Positions 25,626-56,545 of a stretch of 64,000 bases of DNA are shown here, one piece after another. The stretch is from positions 310,001-374,000 of the forward strand of contig NZ_CP046457.1 of assembly GCF_009734445.1 (NCBI RefSeq), given 5' to 3'. Under the pieces are notes generated by a model. It was not told the origin of the DNA, ran no database searches, and saw only the letters and a program-made list of their open reading frames with translations. Numbering within the stretch: position 1 is the first letter of the stretch; every line of letters starts with the position of its first letter. The stretch comes from Candidatus Syntrophocurvum alkaliphilum (GTDB lineage: Bacteria; Bacillota; Syntrophomonadia; Syntrophomonadales; Syntrophomonadaceae). Both the position numbers and the translations under genes were made by a program.

Positions 25626-26720
25626 ATGCATAAAGTTAACGTTAATCTTGGGGACAAGTCTTATAATATATATATTGATAAAGGTCTTTTAGCTAATACT
25701 GCACAGATAATTAGTGAAGTATCAAGCACTAAAAAAATTTTGCTTGTTAGCAATCCTACCGTTTATTCTCTTTATGGTGAAGTAGTTATAAAAGAACTAA
25801 GAAAAGCTAATTTTGAAGTAATAAAAAGTATTATTCCAGATGGTGAACAATATAAAAATATGAAAGAAGCTTTAAAAGTTATAGATTTAGCAATAAAAAA
25901 TAATTTAGAAAGATCAAGTATAATCGTTGCTTTAGGTGGTGGAGTTGTTGGTGATTTAGCGGGATTTGTAGCTTCAATTTACCACAGAGGAATAGATTTT
26001 GTGCAGATACCAACGACACTTTTGGCTCAGGTAGATAGCAGTGTTGGTGGTAAGGTAGCAGTAAACCACCCAGAAGGAAAAAACATTATTGGAGCATTTC
26101 ATCAACCTAAAGCTGTAATAATAGATACAAACACCTTAAAGACCTTAGAGAAAAGAGATTATAAATCTGGTTTAGCAGAAATAACCAAATATGGTATTAT
26201 TTTTGATAAAGAATTTTTCACATTTATAGAAAACAATTTAGATAAAATCAAAAGCATGAAAGATTTATTTGCTATAGAAGAACTTATTTCAAAATCATGT
26301 ATAATTAAACGGTCAATAGTTGAATTAGATGAAAAAGAATATGGAATAAGAGCAATATTAAATTTAGGTCATACCTTTGGGCATTCCATTGAAAAACTTA
26401 CAGATTATACAACTTATAGACATGGTGAAGCTGTAGCATTAGGCATTCTTTATGCAAGTGAACTTGCTGCAGATTATGGTAGTATAAAAACTTCAGAAAA
26501 ACATAAAATCCAAAATTTATTAGTAAATTTAGAGTTATTAACTAAATTGCCAATGTTAACAGGTGAACAGATTTATAATGGAATGTTAAATGATAAAAAA
26601 ATGGAAAACAACAAATTAAACTTAGTTCTACCAAAAGGAATAGGTGATTACATAATTACAGCTGATATACCAGAAAATGAAATAATACAAGCAATAAATA
26701 AAGTTAATGAAAATTTTTGA
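25626..26720 (+). CDS. aroB: 3-Dehydroquinate synthase AroB
   Basis: 364 residues. NAD- and metal-dependent cyclisation of DAHP. Motifs: IPDGEQYKN, GGGVVGDLAGFVASIYHRG, PTTLLAQVDSSVGGKVAVNH, KNIIGAFHQP, GLAEITKYG, and the metal ligands in LNLGHTFGHSIE and RHGEAVALG. Last of aroE-C-K-B here; aroQ is found 12 kb further on. A minus-strand unit ends against its 3' end. Confidence 0.96.
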   Translation: MHKVNVNLGDKSYNIYIDKGLLANTAQIISEVSSTKKILLVSNPTVYSLYGEVVIKELRKANFEVIKSIIPDGEQYKNMKEALKVIDLAIKNNLERSSIIVALGGGVVGDLAGFVASIYHRGIDFVQIPTTLLAQVDSSVGGKVAVNHPEGKNIIGAFHQPKAVIIDTNTLKTLEKRDYKSGLAEITKYGIIFDKEFFTFIENNLDKIKSMKDLFAIEELISKSCIIKRSIVELDEKEYGIRAILNLGHTFGHSIEKLTDYTTYRHGEAVALGILYASELAADYGSIKTSEKHKIQNLLVNLELLTKLPMLTGEQIYNGMLNDKKMENNKLNLVLPKGIGDYIITADIPENEIIQAINKVNENF

Positions 26721-26754
26721 TAACTTGCTTCGTTTCTTAATATTATAATAAAAA

Positions 26755-26786
26755 GAAGGAATCTTTCATTTAAGAAAGATTCCTTC
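26755..26786 (-). terminator. Terminator for a minus-strand transcript
   Basis: Perfect 13-bp stem GAAGGAATCTTTC/GAAAGATTCCTTC, loop of six. Read on the minus strand it is followed by TTTTTATT; on the plus strand no T-run follows. It therefore best serves transcription coming from 27.2 kb leftwards. Confidence 0.7.
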
Positions 26787-27240
26787 ACAAGCCCACAATA
26801 ATCTACACTAGAGCTACTGCAAATTCCTGCGTAGCCCCTGACAATCTTTCGACTGCCAAAGACCATTACGAAACTTACAATAACCTTCGCTTGATCCGTA
26901 TAAATCCCATAGAAGCATATAACAATCTCTCGACTATTATAACCCTCAAAAGCAAAATTACTTTCGAAATTTATACAGATCTTAGCTCGACTAACAAGTA
27001 TCTCTTACGATTATATAATAGTCCTTCGGACTACTATATAACCTGCCAAAACACTTATCAATCTTCCCTCCAGCTAATACTGAGCCTTTTTTAGACCCAA
27101 TATTAACTTTTGGTCGACTACTACAGAGCCGAATAAAACCCTGTAATAATCTTTGCTCAACTATTGTGAACCTGTTAGTCTTATTATGAACAAAATTAAT
27201 AAAACTATTCTGCCAACTAATGGTTAAACCTTAAAATAAA
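26787..27240 (-). ncRNA. Putative minus-strand non-coding RNA built of ~40-nt degenerate repeats
   Basis: No believable protein on either strand. On the minus strand the sequence is purine-rich, opposite to the plus strand here but like transcribed strands elsewhere in the window. About eight or nine units of 37-57 nt can be followed, most beginning AGTCGA or AGC, then AAGATT within a few bases, then a GGG block (examples: AGTCGAGAGATTGTTATATG and AGTCGAAAGATTGTCAGG). Several units carry a small hairpin, for example TAGTCC/GGACTA at 27018-27033. It ends at a terminator of matching direction. Promoter not identified. Confidence 0.4.
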
Positions 27241-27361: not shown

Positions 27362-28945
27362 ATGGCTAAATTGCATTCAAGTGAACAGTCTTTTAAAAAA
27401 GTGAAAACTATTTATAATAATGTAGACTTTAATTATAGATACGAAAAATTAAGTAGCTTAAATATAAACCCACAATCGATTAAGCTTGTACCTAATGTCT
27501 TATTAAATAAATATAATTTTTTACCTATTTCATTGAAGGAAAACACCTTAATTATCGCAGTAACAGATCCATATGACTTAACTATGAAAGACGAAATAAG
27601 TATAGCAACTGGTATGGAAGTTGAACTAGTAATAGTTGAAAAAAAGGACTTAGAGAGAGCTAGAAAACAATATTTAGTTATTAATATAGAATCAGATATT
27701 AATAAATCATTAAGTCAAATAGGCGAAAATAATAATGAAGCATATTCGACATTAAAAAAATCATATAAATTACAAGAAGACGCACCTATAGTAAGTATTG
27801 TTAGCACTTTAATGATACAGGCAGTACAAGGACAGGCTAGTGACATTCATATAGAACCTCAGAAAGAAGAGGTTAGAGTACGTTTCAGAATAGATGGACA
27901 TTTACATAAGGTTTTAAGTTTGCCCAAATCGATATTATCAGGTGTTATTTCTAGGCTAAAAATTTTAGCAGATATGGATATAGCAGAGAAACGAATTGCT
28001 CAGGATGGTCATATAAACATGACTATCGAAGAGAGAGAAGTAGATTTTCGAATATCTACTTTACCCACCATATTTGGTGAAAAAGCAGTCATAAGAATAC
28101 TTGATAAAGCTAATGCAATAACACAAATCAATTCTCTTGGTTTATCTGAAAAAAATAGAGCAATATTAGTATCTCTATGTCAAAGACCACATGGATTGGT
28201 ACTAGTTACTGGTCCAACTGGATGTGGTAAAACAACTACATTATATAGTATGTTAAATGAAATAACAGATGAATCTTTAAATATTATTACATTAGAGGAC
28301 CCAGTGGAGTTTTGTATTGAGGGGATCAACCAAGTACAAATTAATCCTAAAGCTGGGTTAACTTTTTCAAGTGGTTTAAGATCTATTCTAAGACAAGACC
28401 CTAATGTAATTATGGTTGGTGAGATTCGAGATTACGAAACAGCACAACTATCAGTACAAGCTGCCTTAACAGGTCATTTGGTTTTGTCTACTTTACATAC
28501 TAATAGTGCAGCATTAACTGTTGCTCGTTTAGCTGATATACAAATTGAAAATTTTCTTTTAGCTTCTTGTTTAGCTGGTGTAGTTTCACAAAGGCTAGTG
28601 AGGAAATTATGCCCAAACTGTTCAGAATCTTACATATTGGATGAACATACAGCAATAAGGTTAGGGATTCGGGAAGAAGCTGGTGCTCAATTTTATCGTG
28701 CAAAGGGCTGTAGTATGTGTAGAAACTTAGGGTACTATGGGCGAATTGCATTACAAGAAATAATGATTGTAGGAAAATCCATTAGTGATGAAATAAATAA
28801 AGGGAATACAACTGAAAACTTATTAGAGAAAATGGCTATAGAAGAAGGGATGTCAACGATAAAAAGTGATGGTGTTACTAAAGCTAAACAAGGAATAACA
28901 TCATTAGAAGAAGTTCTCCAGGCTGTATTGCTTGAATCAAGTTAA
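27362..28945 (+). CDS. pilB: Type IV pilus / type II secretion assembly ATPase PilB
   Basis: 527 residues. An MshE/GspE-type N-terminal domain, then the secretion ATPase domain. Walker A GPTGCGKTTT at about 284-293, the Asp box LNIITLEDPVE, Walker B NVIMVGEIRD, and His box LVLSTLHTN. A zinc-type CPNC...CSMC tetracysteine lies near 418-460. Cytoplasmic hexamer that powers pilin polymerisation. ATG after AAGGGAG. The 120 bases upstream are almost pure A/T and should hold the promoter. No PilT retraction ATPase is in the cluster. Confidence 0.94.
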   Translation: MAKLHSSEQSFKKVKTIYNNVDFNYRYEKLSSLNINPQSIKLVPNVLLNKYNFLPISLKENTLIIAVTDPYDLTMKDEISIATGMEVELVIVEKKDLERARKQYLVINIESDINKSLSQIGENNNEAYSTLKKSYKLQEDAPIVSIVSTLMIQAVQGQASDIHIEPQKEEVRVRFRIDGHLHKVLSLPKSILSGVISRLKILADMDIAEKRIAQDGHINMTIEEREVDFRISTLPTIFGEKAVIRILDKANAITQINSLGLSEKNRAILVSLCQRPHGLVLVTGPTGCGKTTTLYSMLNEITDESLNIITLEDPVEFCIEGINQVQINPKAGLTFSSGLRSILRQDPNVIMVGEIRDYETAQLSVQAALTGHLVLSTLHTNSAALTVARLADIQIENFLLASCLAGVVSQRLVRKLCPNCSESYILDEHTAIRLGIREEAGAQFYRAKGCSMCRNLGYYGRIALQEIMIVGKSISDEINKGNTTENLLEKMAIEEGMSTIKSDGVTKAKQGITSLEEVLQAVLLESS

Positions 28946-28962
28946 ATAAAAGAGGCAGGTAT

Positions 28963-30177
28963 ATGCTGTTATATAGTTATCGAGTAAGAGATGAAAATGG
29001 CAGAGTAAAAAAAGGCTATTTAAAAGCAAGTAATAAAGAAAATGCAATTCAAAGCCTTCTGTTTCAAAAATATTATATTTTAGATCTTAATACTACTTCG
29101 AATTACAATATTTTAAATAATAATTTTTTTGTTAGGGTTAAAACTCAAGATCTTATTAATATGACTAGACAATTTTCAACTATGTTATCTGCTGGGCTAC
29201 CGATTGCTGATACCTTAAACATATTAGAAGAGCAAACTCGCAATAAAAAACTACAAACTACAATATCAGAAGTAAAAGAAGATGTTATTGCAGGTTTATC
29301 TATTTGGGAAGCTTTAAATAAACACCCTGCTATATTTAATAATTTATATATAAATATGGTAAGGGTTGGAGAACAGGGTGGATCCCTTAGGACAGTTTTA
29401 AATCGCTTAATATCTTATTTAGAAAGAGAGCAGACTATAGAATTAAAACTTAGGTCAGCATTCATATATCCTGCACTTATTTTAGTTTTTACTATATTAG
29501 TTATACTATTTATTGTTTCCTTTATTATGCCTAATTTAGTAAGTATGTTTGTTGCTTCAGGAAGCACAATTCCATGGATAACTAAAGCTTTTTTGTTAGT
29601 TAGTGAAACTTTAAAAGGTGATTGGTATTTAATAATAATATCTACAGTAATAGCTTTATTATTTTTTAAATTAATTATTAAAACTAAAAAAGGCAAACTG
29701 TACTGGGATAAATTCATAATTAAAGCTCCAATTATAGGCAGTTCGATTTCGCAGATTTTAGTGGCACGTTTTTCTAGAACCATGGGTGTCTTGGTTATGT
29801 CTGGGATAACCGTAATAGGTGCTTTAGAAACTGCAAAAGCTGTTATCAATAATAAAGTAATGGAAATGGCTATTATTGATGCTAGTAATAGTATAAAAGA
29901 GGGTAATTCTGTTGCTAAACCTTTTGCCGAGTCAGGTGTATTTGATTCAATGGTAATACAAATGATTGCAGTAGGTGAAGAAACAGGGACTTTAGATGAA
30001 ATGTTAATCAAAGTAGCAGACTATTTTGACCAAGAGGTAATGTATGTTATTGATAATCTTATAACTATTTTACAACCAGCATTAATTCTAATAGTTGCAT
30101 TTTTAGTAGGTATAGTAGTAATAGCTACTATTCTACCGATTTTTGATCTTATAAATATAATGGGGACAGGTTTTTAG
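28963..30177 (+). CDS. pilC: Pilus inner-membrane platform protein PilC
   Basis: 404 residues, GspF/PilC family with two T2SSF domains. Each domain carries the pattern FSTMLSAGLPI...AL and FSRTMGVLVMSGITVIGALE. Three membrane helices: two near 165-190 and 215-240 and one at the C terminus (LILIVAFLVGIVVIATILPIF). It anchors the pilus base and couples it to PilB, whose gene ends 17 bases upstream. Confidence 0.93.
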   Translation: MLLYSYRVRDENGRVKKGYLKASNKENAIQSLLFQKYYILDLNTTSNYNILNNNFFVRVKTQDLINMTRQFSTMLSAGLPIADTLNILEEQTRNKKLQTTISEVKEDVIAGLSIWEALNKHPAIFNNLYINMVRVGEQGGSLRTVLNRLISYLEREQTIELKLRSAFIYPALILVFTILVILFIVSFIMPNLVSMFVASGSTIPWITKAFLLVSETLKGDWYLIIISTVIALLFFKLIIKTKKGKLYWDKFIIKAPIIGSSISQILVARFSRTMGVLVMSGITVIGALETAKAVINNKVMEMAIIDASNSIKEGNSVAKPFAESGVFDSMVIQMIAVGEETGTLDEMLIKVADYFDQEVMYVIDNLITILQPALILIVAFLVGIVVIATILPIFDLINIMGTGF

Positions 30178-30212
30178 ATACCATTATGGGGGTGTAGGAG
30201 ATTAAAATCAAT

Positions 30213-30572
30213 TTGATAAACAATAAAAAAGGTTTTACTTTAGTTGAATTGATAATTGTAATGGCTATTTTAGCTCTTGTTGCAGCAGTAGCTGTACCTA
30301 AGTTTCAAAATGTATTAGAAACCTCTAAAAAGCAAGCTCATAATACTAATGTAATGGCAATAGAAAAGGCAGCTGAGATGTATTTTTTAGAAACTAATAC
30401 TGAACTTGAGTCATCAGAAATTAAAGAAACCCATGACTTAATTACAAAAAATTACTTGCAAACAGTTCCCACCTATCCATTAAATGACGAGATTGAGTAT
30501 TATACAGTTACTATAAGTGATAGAGGCGTTATTGAAGTTAATCCAAAAAGAAAAGAGATATCTAATGAATGA
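30213..30572 (+). CDS. pilA: Type IV pilin-like protein (major pilin candidate, GspG/PilA type)
   Basis: About 119 residues. Short basic leader then GFTLVELIIVMAILALVAAVAVPKF, the prepilin motif and helix. The remaining 80 residues form a short globular part with EKAAEMYFLETN, similar to Gram-positive ComGC/GspG pilins. TTG 30213 is 12 bases from GTAGGAG (30194-30200), while ATC 30207 is at the better six-base spacing. No cysteine pair. It overlaps pilD by four bases. Confidence 0.88.
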   Translation: MINNKKGFTLVELIIVMAILALVAAVAVPKFQNVLETSKKQAHNTNVMAIEKAAEMYFLETNTELESSEIKETHDLITKNYLQTVPTYPLNDEIEYYTVTISDRGVIEVNPKRKEISNE

Positions 30573-31333
30573 TTACTCTAATTGAAATTATAGTTTATTT
30601 AGGAATATTTATAATAGGTTTAATAATTGGTTCTTTTTTAAATGTCCTTATAAGTAGATTGCCTTATAAAGAGTCAATTATATTTTCAAGAAGCTATTGT
30701 CTCCAATGTAAGAAAAAACTTAAACCATTTGACCTTATTCCACTTGTTAGTTTTCTTATTACCAAGGGACGGTGCAGATATTGTAATAAAAGTATTTCTT
30801 GGTATTACCCCTTGGTAGAAATAATAACGGCTGTTTGCTTTATATTAATTTTTGTCGAGCATAATTTATCACTAAATCTATTAATAGGCTGTTTGTTGGT
30901 TAGTATATTAATTTGCTCATCATTTACTGATATTACTACTGGTCTTATTCCTAATCGCTTAACTTATTTTGGAGTTATAGCAGGACTAAGTTTAAGTTAT
31001 TTTACAATTGGTTTAAAAGAATCATTATTAGGGATTGCATTTTTATTTGGAATATACTTATTAGCTGCAATTATTTCTCAAGGTGGTTTAGGTGGTGGTG
31101 ATATAAAGCTAGCAGCTGCTATTGGAGCTTTTACCGGATTAAAAGGATCTTTTTTTGTATTTATAATTGCTTCGATTATAGGTGGAGTATGGGCTAGTTT
31201 ACTATTAATATCCAAAAAAGCTAGTTTAAAAACAGCTATAAAATTTGGACCTATTTTGTCAATTGCTGCTTTTATTGTTTGGATGTATTTAGAACAATTA
31301 ATAAATTTATATATGAGCATAATATTAAATTAA
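30569..31333 (+). CDS. pilD: Prepilin peptidase / N-methyltransferase PilD
   Basis: 254 residues, A24 family. GSFLNVLISRLPY, then the zinc-type CLQC...CRYC pair. The two catalytic aspartates lie in SSFTDITTGLIPNRL and GLGGGDIKLAAAIG. Seven to eight membrane helices. It removes the leader of the pilins and pseudopilins encoded around it and methylates the new N terminus. ATG overlaps the stop of the pilin gene. Confidence 0.95.
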   Translation: MITLIEIIVYLGIFIIGLIIGSFLNVLISRLPYKESIIFSRSYCLQCKKKLKPFDLIPLVSFLITKGRCRYCNKSISWYYPLVEIITAVCFILIFVEHNLSLNLLIGCLLVSILICSSFTDITTGLIPNRLTYFGVIAGLSLSYFTIGLKESLLGIAFLFGIYLLAAIISQGGLGGGDIKLAAAIGAFTGLKGSFFVFIIASIIGGVWASLLLISKKASLKTAIKFGPILSIAAFIVWMYLEQLINLYMSIILN

Positions 31334-55942: not shown

Positions 55943-55949
55943 ATTTGTC

Positions 55950-56545
55950 TGATAGTTTGGCGAAAGGTTGCAGTATTCTAGTCAATCCTATCAATTTTGA
56001 AGACGGGCCTAAAAATCCGTCAAGGGCACATCGATGAAGCTTTTGGTGATGGCTTCTGACGCCCCGTTGGGGGTCATTGCTGGGAGTTAAGGGTGTTGGG
56101 GCACTCCGCAAGGGCATGCGGAAGATGACCCCTCCATCTGTGGAGGCTCAATATCTTTTTGATATTGAGAAAACCTACATTCTGGTGAAAGCTGGGTGTA
56201 GTGTAGCCTGCCTTGAGTGGTGCCGGCGGATAAGCGTTAATGAATTATAATTACTTTGGCCGGGACATTATAATTCTGCTTTGAAACCGTTTGCTGCAAA
56301 AGAGGCTAGAAATTGATTTGGGTTGTTGAGGAAAACTCCTAGACTGAATGTAATCACACATGGTTTATCGGGGATTAAAGTGCGTACTTAGTGGTAATCC
56401 AGCTCCATATTCGGTGACGATATGGAGTAGGCATAAAGGGAAACCGCCCATTTGGCAACAATTGGGTGTCCTACTGGGAAAACCTGCTGGACCTATGTCG
56501 CAGCGTTTACTCGATAAACAACCTTTCGCCACCACCCTTTTTTAT
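55950..56545 (+). ncRNA. ole: OLE RNA (ornate large extremophilic RNA)
   Basis: About 600 nt of clearly non-coding, GC-richer sequence between ispA and a membrane protein of OapA type, the known OLE position and length. A perfect 13-bp helix closes it: TGGCGAAAGGTTG (55958-55970) with CAACCTTTCGCCA (56519-56531). Many internal hairpins are visible: GACGG/CCGTC (56002-56021), CCTCCA/TGGAGG (56131-56146), CTCAATATC/GATATTGAG (56147-56169), AATTATAAT/ATTATAATT, CTCCATAT/ATATGGAG. OLE RNA forms a membrane-bound complex with OapA and protects against cold, short-chain alcohols and poor carbon or Mg stress in alkaliphilic bacilli. Identified by context, size and fold, not by model search. Confidence 0.88.

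Follow-up and report, generated by a model that had tools for sequence, protein, structure and literature searches.

The window analysed here is a stretch of 64,000 nucleotides (nt) from Candidatus Syntrophocurvum alkaliphilum (assembly GCF_009734445.1, contig NZ_CP046457.1, positions 310,001–374,000), and coordinates below refer to it. Between the plus-strand genes aroB, which ends at 26720, and a pilB/gspE-like gene, which starts at 27362 (both names are our reading of the translations), the minus strand almost certainly carries, to judge from the comparisons described below, a gene for a structured RNA of ~390 nt. The predicted RNA proper occupies 26787–27173 (387 nt) and is followed by a perfect 13-bp intrinsic terminator hairpin (26755–26786, minus strand) with a T-run at 26754–26750. 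No other terminator-like site was detected between 26600 and 27500, where shuffles average 0.1 sites. A preliminary description of the locus had placed a minus-strand non-coding unit at 26755–27240, made of degenerate ~40-nt repeats, ending in this stem and transcribed towards aroB. The fold, the covariation, a promoter-like motif upstream and the terminator bear out the predicted strand and direction of transcription. As to extent, the RNA (27173–26787) and the terminator down to 26755 stand, but 27174–27240 contains a promoter and not repeat units.

No protein frame fits the RNA region. Stop codons number 8, 4 and 13 in the sense frames and 11, 8 and 4 in the antisense frames, and the lengths of homologues (331–458 nt) are spread over all modulo-3 classes (36, 33 and 30), so that a coding reading is rejected, as it had been at the outset. 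The same holds for an array of clustered regularly interspaced short palindromic repeats (CRISPR): there are at most three copies per repeat family, their identities are mostly 70–83% and their spacing is irregular. A family of repeats, which had been offered as an alternative to a structured RNA, did not survive a blastn search of the 2.36-Mb genome. The search returned one locus and, beyond that, only a match to this locus's own terminator palindrome, which rules out a dispersed repeat of the miniature inverted-repeat transposable element (MITE) kind.

A multi-arm RNA with helices of fixed length

The minus strand from 27240 to 26745 folds to −206.8 kcal/mol, against a mean of −108.4 kcal/mol (standard deviation 5.69) for 100 dinucleotide shuffles, none of which folds as low (z = −17.3). 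The 387-nt element alone has a minimum-energy fold of −173.0 kcal/mol, in which 80% of the bases are paired. The fold consists of a 15-bp closing stem, P1 (5' strand 27159–27173, 3' strand 26789–26803), and five arms arranged around one multiloop, all on the minus strand. Arms A (27116–27151) and B (27072–27108) are single rungs of 15 and 16 bp (15 bp in the consensus of B) with variable loops. Arm C (26989–27063) is a stack of two 16-bp rungs, C1 and C2, separated by a 4×4 internal loop; C2 has 14 bp in the consensus. Arm D (26893–26981) is made up of a 16-bp rung D1, a three-way junction, a variable hairpin (26948–26965) and a rung D2 capped by a GNRA tetraloop, and its variable head forms further helices of 7, 4 and 10 bp in the window. 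Arm E (26812–26885) consists of rungs E1 (16 bp) and E2 (15 bp) with a 4×4 internal loop between them and a GAAA-type tetraloop at the tip.

The recurrence of ~40-nt units noted in the preliminary description is real, but the units are helical rungs of one RNA rather than separate repeats. A covariance model of arm E, built from relatives, matches three places in the window RNA, namely arm E itself, 27119–27047 (E = 6e-13) and 26992–26911 (E = 6e-6), and arm-E models match other arms in relatives as well. The ~40-nt repeats are therefore copies of one hairpin unit, and the RNA may have grown by internal duplication of a single hairpin.

The pairing is conserved between homologues. An RNAalifold analysis of five sequences gives 152 pairs, 67 of which show compensatory change on both sides. 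A larger alignment of 99 non-redundant homologues has 142 consensus pairs. Among these copies, all with a recognized P1, 97.2% of cells are paired, and 118 of the pairs changed on both sides in two or more sequences. Pairing falls to 32–43% if one side is slid by 1–3 columns, and column shuffles give a mean of 76.6% of cells paired and 82.8 pairs with double changes. Because P1 was located by its pairing, its own share (15 of the 142 pairs) is favoured. An earlier set had lost 6 of 71 loci that were redundant, truncated or without a recognizable P1 5' strand. The later set started from 139 loci, of which 10 were dropped on these grounds; 100 non-redundant sequences were kept of the remaining 129, and 99 of these passed by length. 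Some dropped loci, for instance one whose 5' half was not found, may be decayed copies.

The complementary strand pairs in only 72.6% of cells, as against 97.2% on the RNA strand. G–U pairs occupy 25.2% of cells, and 19 of the 142 pairs are G–U in at least 80% of sequences. Such strand-specific pairing excludes a DNA palindrome as the object of selection and identifies the minus strand as the sense strand.

The most unusual property of the fold is the length of its helices. The nine consensus helices are all 14–16 bp long and are gap-free in 95–99 of the 99 homologues (P1 in all 99). In single-sequence folds of the same homologues, helix lengths peak at 15 bp (238 helices) and 16 bp (307), 545 together, where shuffles lead one to expect about 1.8 and 0.2 (~2 together). 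G–U pairs gather towards both rung ends: their fraction is 0.53 at pair 3, 0.52 at pair 12 and 0.51 at pair 14, with values of 0.08–0.13 mid-rung. A recurring linker, GUC-GAGCNAAG-GAY, connects the helices, and the hub consensus repeats AA before the arms and GA or GG after them. GNRA tetraloops cap arm D in 90 and arm E in 92 of the 99 homologues. The loops of arms A and B vary freely; the arms keep their length and end motifs, not their sequence. A T-run or a terminator hairpin follows P1 in 74 of the 99.

In the window, GC in the six linkers (27152–27158, 27109–27115, 27064–27071, 26982–26988, 26886–26892 and 26804–26811) could form either of two alternating sets of pairs, one that extends P1, B and D, as drawn, and one that extends A, C and E. 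In such a model the hub is a candidate two-state element.

A probable forespore-type promoter upstream of P1

Upstream of the RNA, on the same strand, lie a −35-like element, GAATA (27206–27210), and a −10-like element, CATAATA (27182–27188), the latter separated by ~9 nt from the start of P1 pairing. This site, AGAATAGT-N12-GTTCATAATA, scores 13.3, which is above the 95% lines of both controls (the 99% quantile of random windows is 13.5 and the 95% quantile of intergenic windows is 12.3).

With upstream regions aligned and anchored on P1, GGnnAnnnTA is found upstream of 82 of 100 RNAs, whereas shuffles give a mean of 9.9 and a maximum of 18, and the GG of the motif starts 15–22 nt before P1 in nearly all RNAs. 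A matrix derived from these upstream regions converges on T-G-T/A-A-T-A-A/T-T, a gap of 12–13 nt, and G-G-G/A/T-C/T-A-T/A/C-A-A/C-T-A, which we take to be the form of sigma-F/sigma-G promoters and which does not separate the two sigmas. The RNA upstream regions exceed the intergenic 95% line in 87 of 100 cases.

Upstream regions of 30 SASP and 22 gpr genes, drawn from 22 genomes with both families, served as controls. The RNA-trained matrix places 20 of the SASP and 13 of the gpr regions above the random-window 95% line, and 11 and 9, respectively, above the intergenic 95% line (1.5 and 1.1 expected). Compared to intergenic windows, the Mann–Whitney probabilities are 3e-11 for SASP and 7e-5 for gpr, and the signal is stronger against random genomic windows than against intergenic ones. 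On these controls and the sigma-F/sigma-G consensus, to which the sigma class is owed, the upstream element is very probably a forespore promoter. A sigma-F/sigma-G-type promoter just upstream is also the mark of forespore-specific RNA genes of the CsfG and Bvs196 type. We strongly infer from the promoter that the RNA is expressed in the forespore.

Distribution and apparent link to sporulation

The preliminary description would have been undermined by a lack of similar units in this and related genomes, a test that it passes, as the following matches show. Apart from the genome itself, 4 of 40 relatives gave blastn matches. Three covariance models were then run on a sample of 398 genomes of the phylum, which, from the names of the carriers, is probably GTDB Bacillota_B. 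R1, a model of arm E built from the five-sequence alignments, matches 160 genomes; R2, an improved arm-E model from 70 sequences, matches 176 (44%); and R3, built independently on the 5' part (the P1 5' strand with arms A and B), matches 156, all of them among the 176. A strict pattern, reached after several designs and run on one genome per species of GTDB r220, returned 69 stretches, and R1 matches all 69. Its carriers are mostly named Desulfotomaculum, Desulfoscipio, Pelotomaculum, Moorella, Carboxydocella, Tepidanaerobacter and Fervidicola. A few metagenome-assembled carriers labelled Deltaproteobacteria, Aneurinibacillus or Thermaerobacter are taken to be misassigned or more distant. Plasmids and phages gave no match in a distant blastn search, and the exact pattern was found in none of the viral contigs.

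Some genomes contain two or three copies of the RNA: on three contigs of G407 (C36, C13 and C34), at 677504 and 1328742 in G348, on contigs C18 and C1 of G065, and in G106, where copies at 1332 and 3945 of contig C9 lie 2.6 kb apart on the same strand. Seven copies are found close to contig ends, no farther from them than a few hundred bases to ~2.5 kb; strong hairpins or additional copies may have interrupted the assembly there. A marginal match in the window's own family (positions 1982–2066 of a contig; 24.7 bits, E = 5e-4) may be a decayed copy or chance.

The RNA has no constant neighbour in 109 loci, where no gene family recurs beyond about 10, and of 104 first genes downstream, 71 are encoded opposite to the RNA. 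The RNA gene is thus free-standing, and a cis-regulatory leader of the riboswitch type is rejected, as it would call for one gene to follow regularly on the strand of the RNA. An AbrB/SpoVT-like gene, by our reading, lies directly upstream on the same strand in five related loci, and not generally; SpoVT is a forespore regulator. In the window, a type IV pilus-like cluster (27362–31333, plus strand; pilB-, pilC-, pilin- and prepilin-peptidase-like frames by our reading) runs divergently from the RNA locus.

Sigma-G was scored in the same 398 genomes with the TIGR02850 model and called absent where the best E value was above 1e-60 (58 genomes), four partial cases being counted as present. R2 or R3 matches 175 of the 340 genomes with sigma-G and 1 of the 58 without it (Fisher test ignoring kinship, 3e-15). 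Within one family of the sample, the RNA is found in the three genomes with sigma-G and in neither of the two without it.

A probable structural RNA of the forespore

As a whole, these data are best explained by a gene for a forespore-specific, non-coding structural RNA, to which we assign a probability of about 0.6. The forespore-type promoter, the fixed helix length of 15–16 bp and the breadth of the family all go beyond the preliminary description. Transcription would proceed in the forespore from the gene's own sigma-G/sigma-F promoter, starting near the first base of P1 and ending at the T-run or terminator hairpin. With ~80% of the bases paired and with helix lengths rather than arm sequences conserved, the RNA most likely works by its shape; that it acts as a scaffold in this way is a proposition to which we give slightly less than even odds. 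Helices locked at 14–16 bp, about one and a half turns of A-form, would produce a rigid RNA hub, on which copies of a protein could be held at equivalent rungs or which could pack against itself through its GNRA tips. The hub might then serve as a scaffold or particle in the core of the developing or dormant spore. More speculatively, and rather unlikely at present, this would be a new class of RNA conserved in length, an architectural RNA of dormancy made in the forespore together with SASPs, whose nine rungs, linked by one repeated junction, would build up an ordered particle or lattice of the dormant spore core, either by themselves or in company with a spore protein.

Several points weigh against a structural RNA of the forespore. 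The RNA is a prediction from sequence comparison, and its scaffold function is a reading of its shape. The promoter motif, as said, fits either forespore sigma, and 13 of 100 RNA, 19 of 30 SASP and 13 of 22 gpr upstream regions fall below the intergenic line. The association with sigma-G is counted without regard to shared ancestry. One genome, 61% complete, has the RNA and no sigma-G match. Of the 340 sigma-G genomes, 165 have no RNA match, and among the 54 genomes of the window's own family only 3 have one, the marginal match included; either spores can do without the RNA, or it escapes the models. The window copy is by these counts an outlier, which would reflect transfer into, or retention in, two genera.

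Among other explanations, an RNA-only particle (a dimer, cage or lattice) that assembles itself like the OLE, GOLLD and ROOL RNAs, joined by GNRA tips, is doubtful. The conserved tetraloops, the equal rung lengths and the repeated junctions suit it, and in PMC12286853 OLE, GOLLD and ROOL are described as homo-oligomers. At the same time, no tetraloop receptor was identified in the RNA, the GNRA loops may dock intramolecularly, and covariance models set the architecture apart from those three families. It is less probable still that the RNA is a trans-acting antisense small RNA (sRNA) of the forespore, pairing with spore messengers as proposed for Bvs196 (spo0A, sspN-tlp). Promoter class and compartment are probably those of Bvs196, for which PMC9147052 reports mRNA binding in vitro and a loss of resistance to heat and UV. 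An antisense mechanism is, however, difficult to reconcile with ~80% of the bases being paired and with conservation that lies in helix length rather than in sequence; no free conserved seed was seen, the loops of A and B being free to vary and the conserved loops being GNRA tetraloops.

A role in regulation, in which the RNA would bind forespore RNA polymerase or ribosomes in the manner of 6S RNA or otherwise, appears quite improbable. Long interrupted helices could mimic duplex DNA, and the timing would suit the shut-down of the forespore, but no 6S covariance match was found, and 6S RNA is a single interrupted rod, unlike a multiloop hub with nine near-equal helices. A DNA-level repeat or mobile element without RNA function (MITE, repetitive extragenic palindrome or inverted-repeat relic), to which the near-palindromic units and the multiple loci of genomes such as G407 and G348 might point, can be dismissed, given the single locus in the window genome, pairing on one strand only with conserved G–U pairs that become A–C mismatches on the other, an upstream motif at a fixed distance, and the lack of matches in plasmids, phages and viral contigs.

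Accounts of the spore usually invoke only proteins, DNA and dipicolinate. If the RNA is indeed tied to sporulation, its presence in 176 of 398 genomes would add an RNA layer to this picture. The length-locked rungs lead to a physical hypothesis, in which selection sees geometry, and the purpose of large ornate RNAs may find an answer here, because in this case the stage of the cell is predicted. Culturable, non-pathogenic carriers include Moorella, Desulfotomaculum-type sulfate reducers and Carboxydocella.

Comparison with known RNAs

Rfam 15, which includes OLE, GOLLD, ROOL, raiA and 6S, contains no family that matches the locus at gathering or permissive thresholds, the best hit (PK-HAV, E = 0.27) being below its gathering score. 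Over the whole window, only OLE matches (RF01071, 491 bits; 55949–56541, plus strand), 29 kb from the RNA locus, and the genome consequently carries two large ornate RNAs. No published description of the RNA was found in the open literature, though subscription journals and supplements may hold one; the passages searched in two surveys of GC-rich intergenic regions (GC-IGR) mention no Moorella or spore-related motif.

Of the forespore RNAs, CsfG is small and is not known to have a multi-arm fold. Sigma-F and sigma-G govern its forespore expression, according to work cited in PMC9147052. The same paper describes Bvs196 (S547) of Bacillus velezensis, a 294-nt forespore sRNA that is independently transcribed under sigma-F and mainly sigma-G and has a stable conserved fold (consensus energy −82 kcal/mol) and its own terminator. 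Its deletion lowers sporulation frequency and resistance to heat and UV, and its gene always lies between hinT and ecsA (PMC9147052). Compared by description only, the window RNA is likewise a free-standing gene with a forespore-type promoter, a stable fold and its own terminator. Unlike Bvs196, it is 387 nt long with a fold of −173 kcal/mol, and it is flanked by aroB and a pilB-like gene, with no constant neighbour in the 109 loci. By analogy, Bvs196 would offer the nearest published function, at the same place and time.

In style, the nearest relatives would be OLE, GOLLD and ROOL, all of which form homo-oligomers, RNA-only in the case of GOLLD and ROOL, according to PMC12286853. Like OLE, the window RNA is a large ornate RNA of anaerobic Gram-positive bacteria, but OLE has no covariance match at the RNA locus. 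It resembles GOLLD and ROOL, as described there, in being large, ornate and structured, and differs from them in having no phage, viral-contig or Rfam match. By every search made, it is a new family of a known kind, the large ornate bacterial RNAs, within which it stands out for being assembled from modules of locked length and for being predicted to occur only in the forespore.
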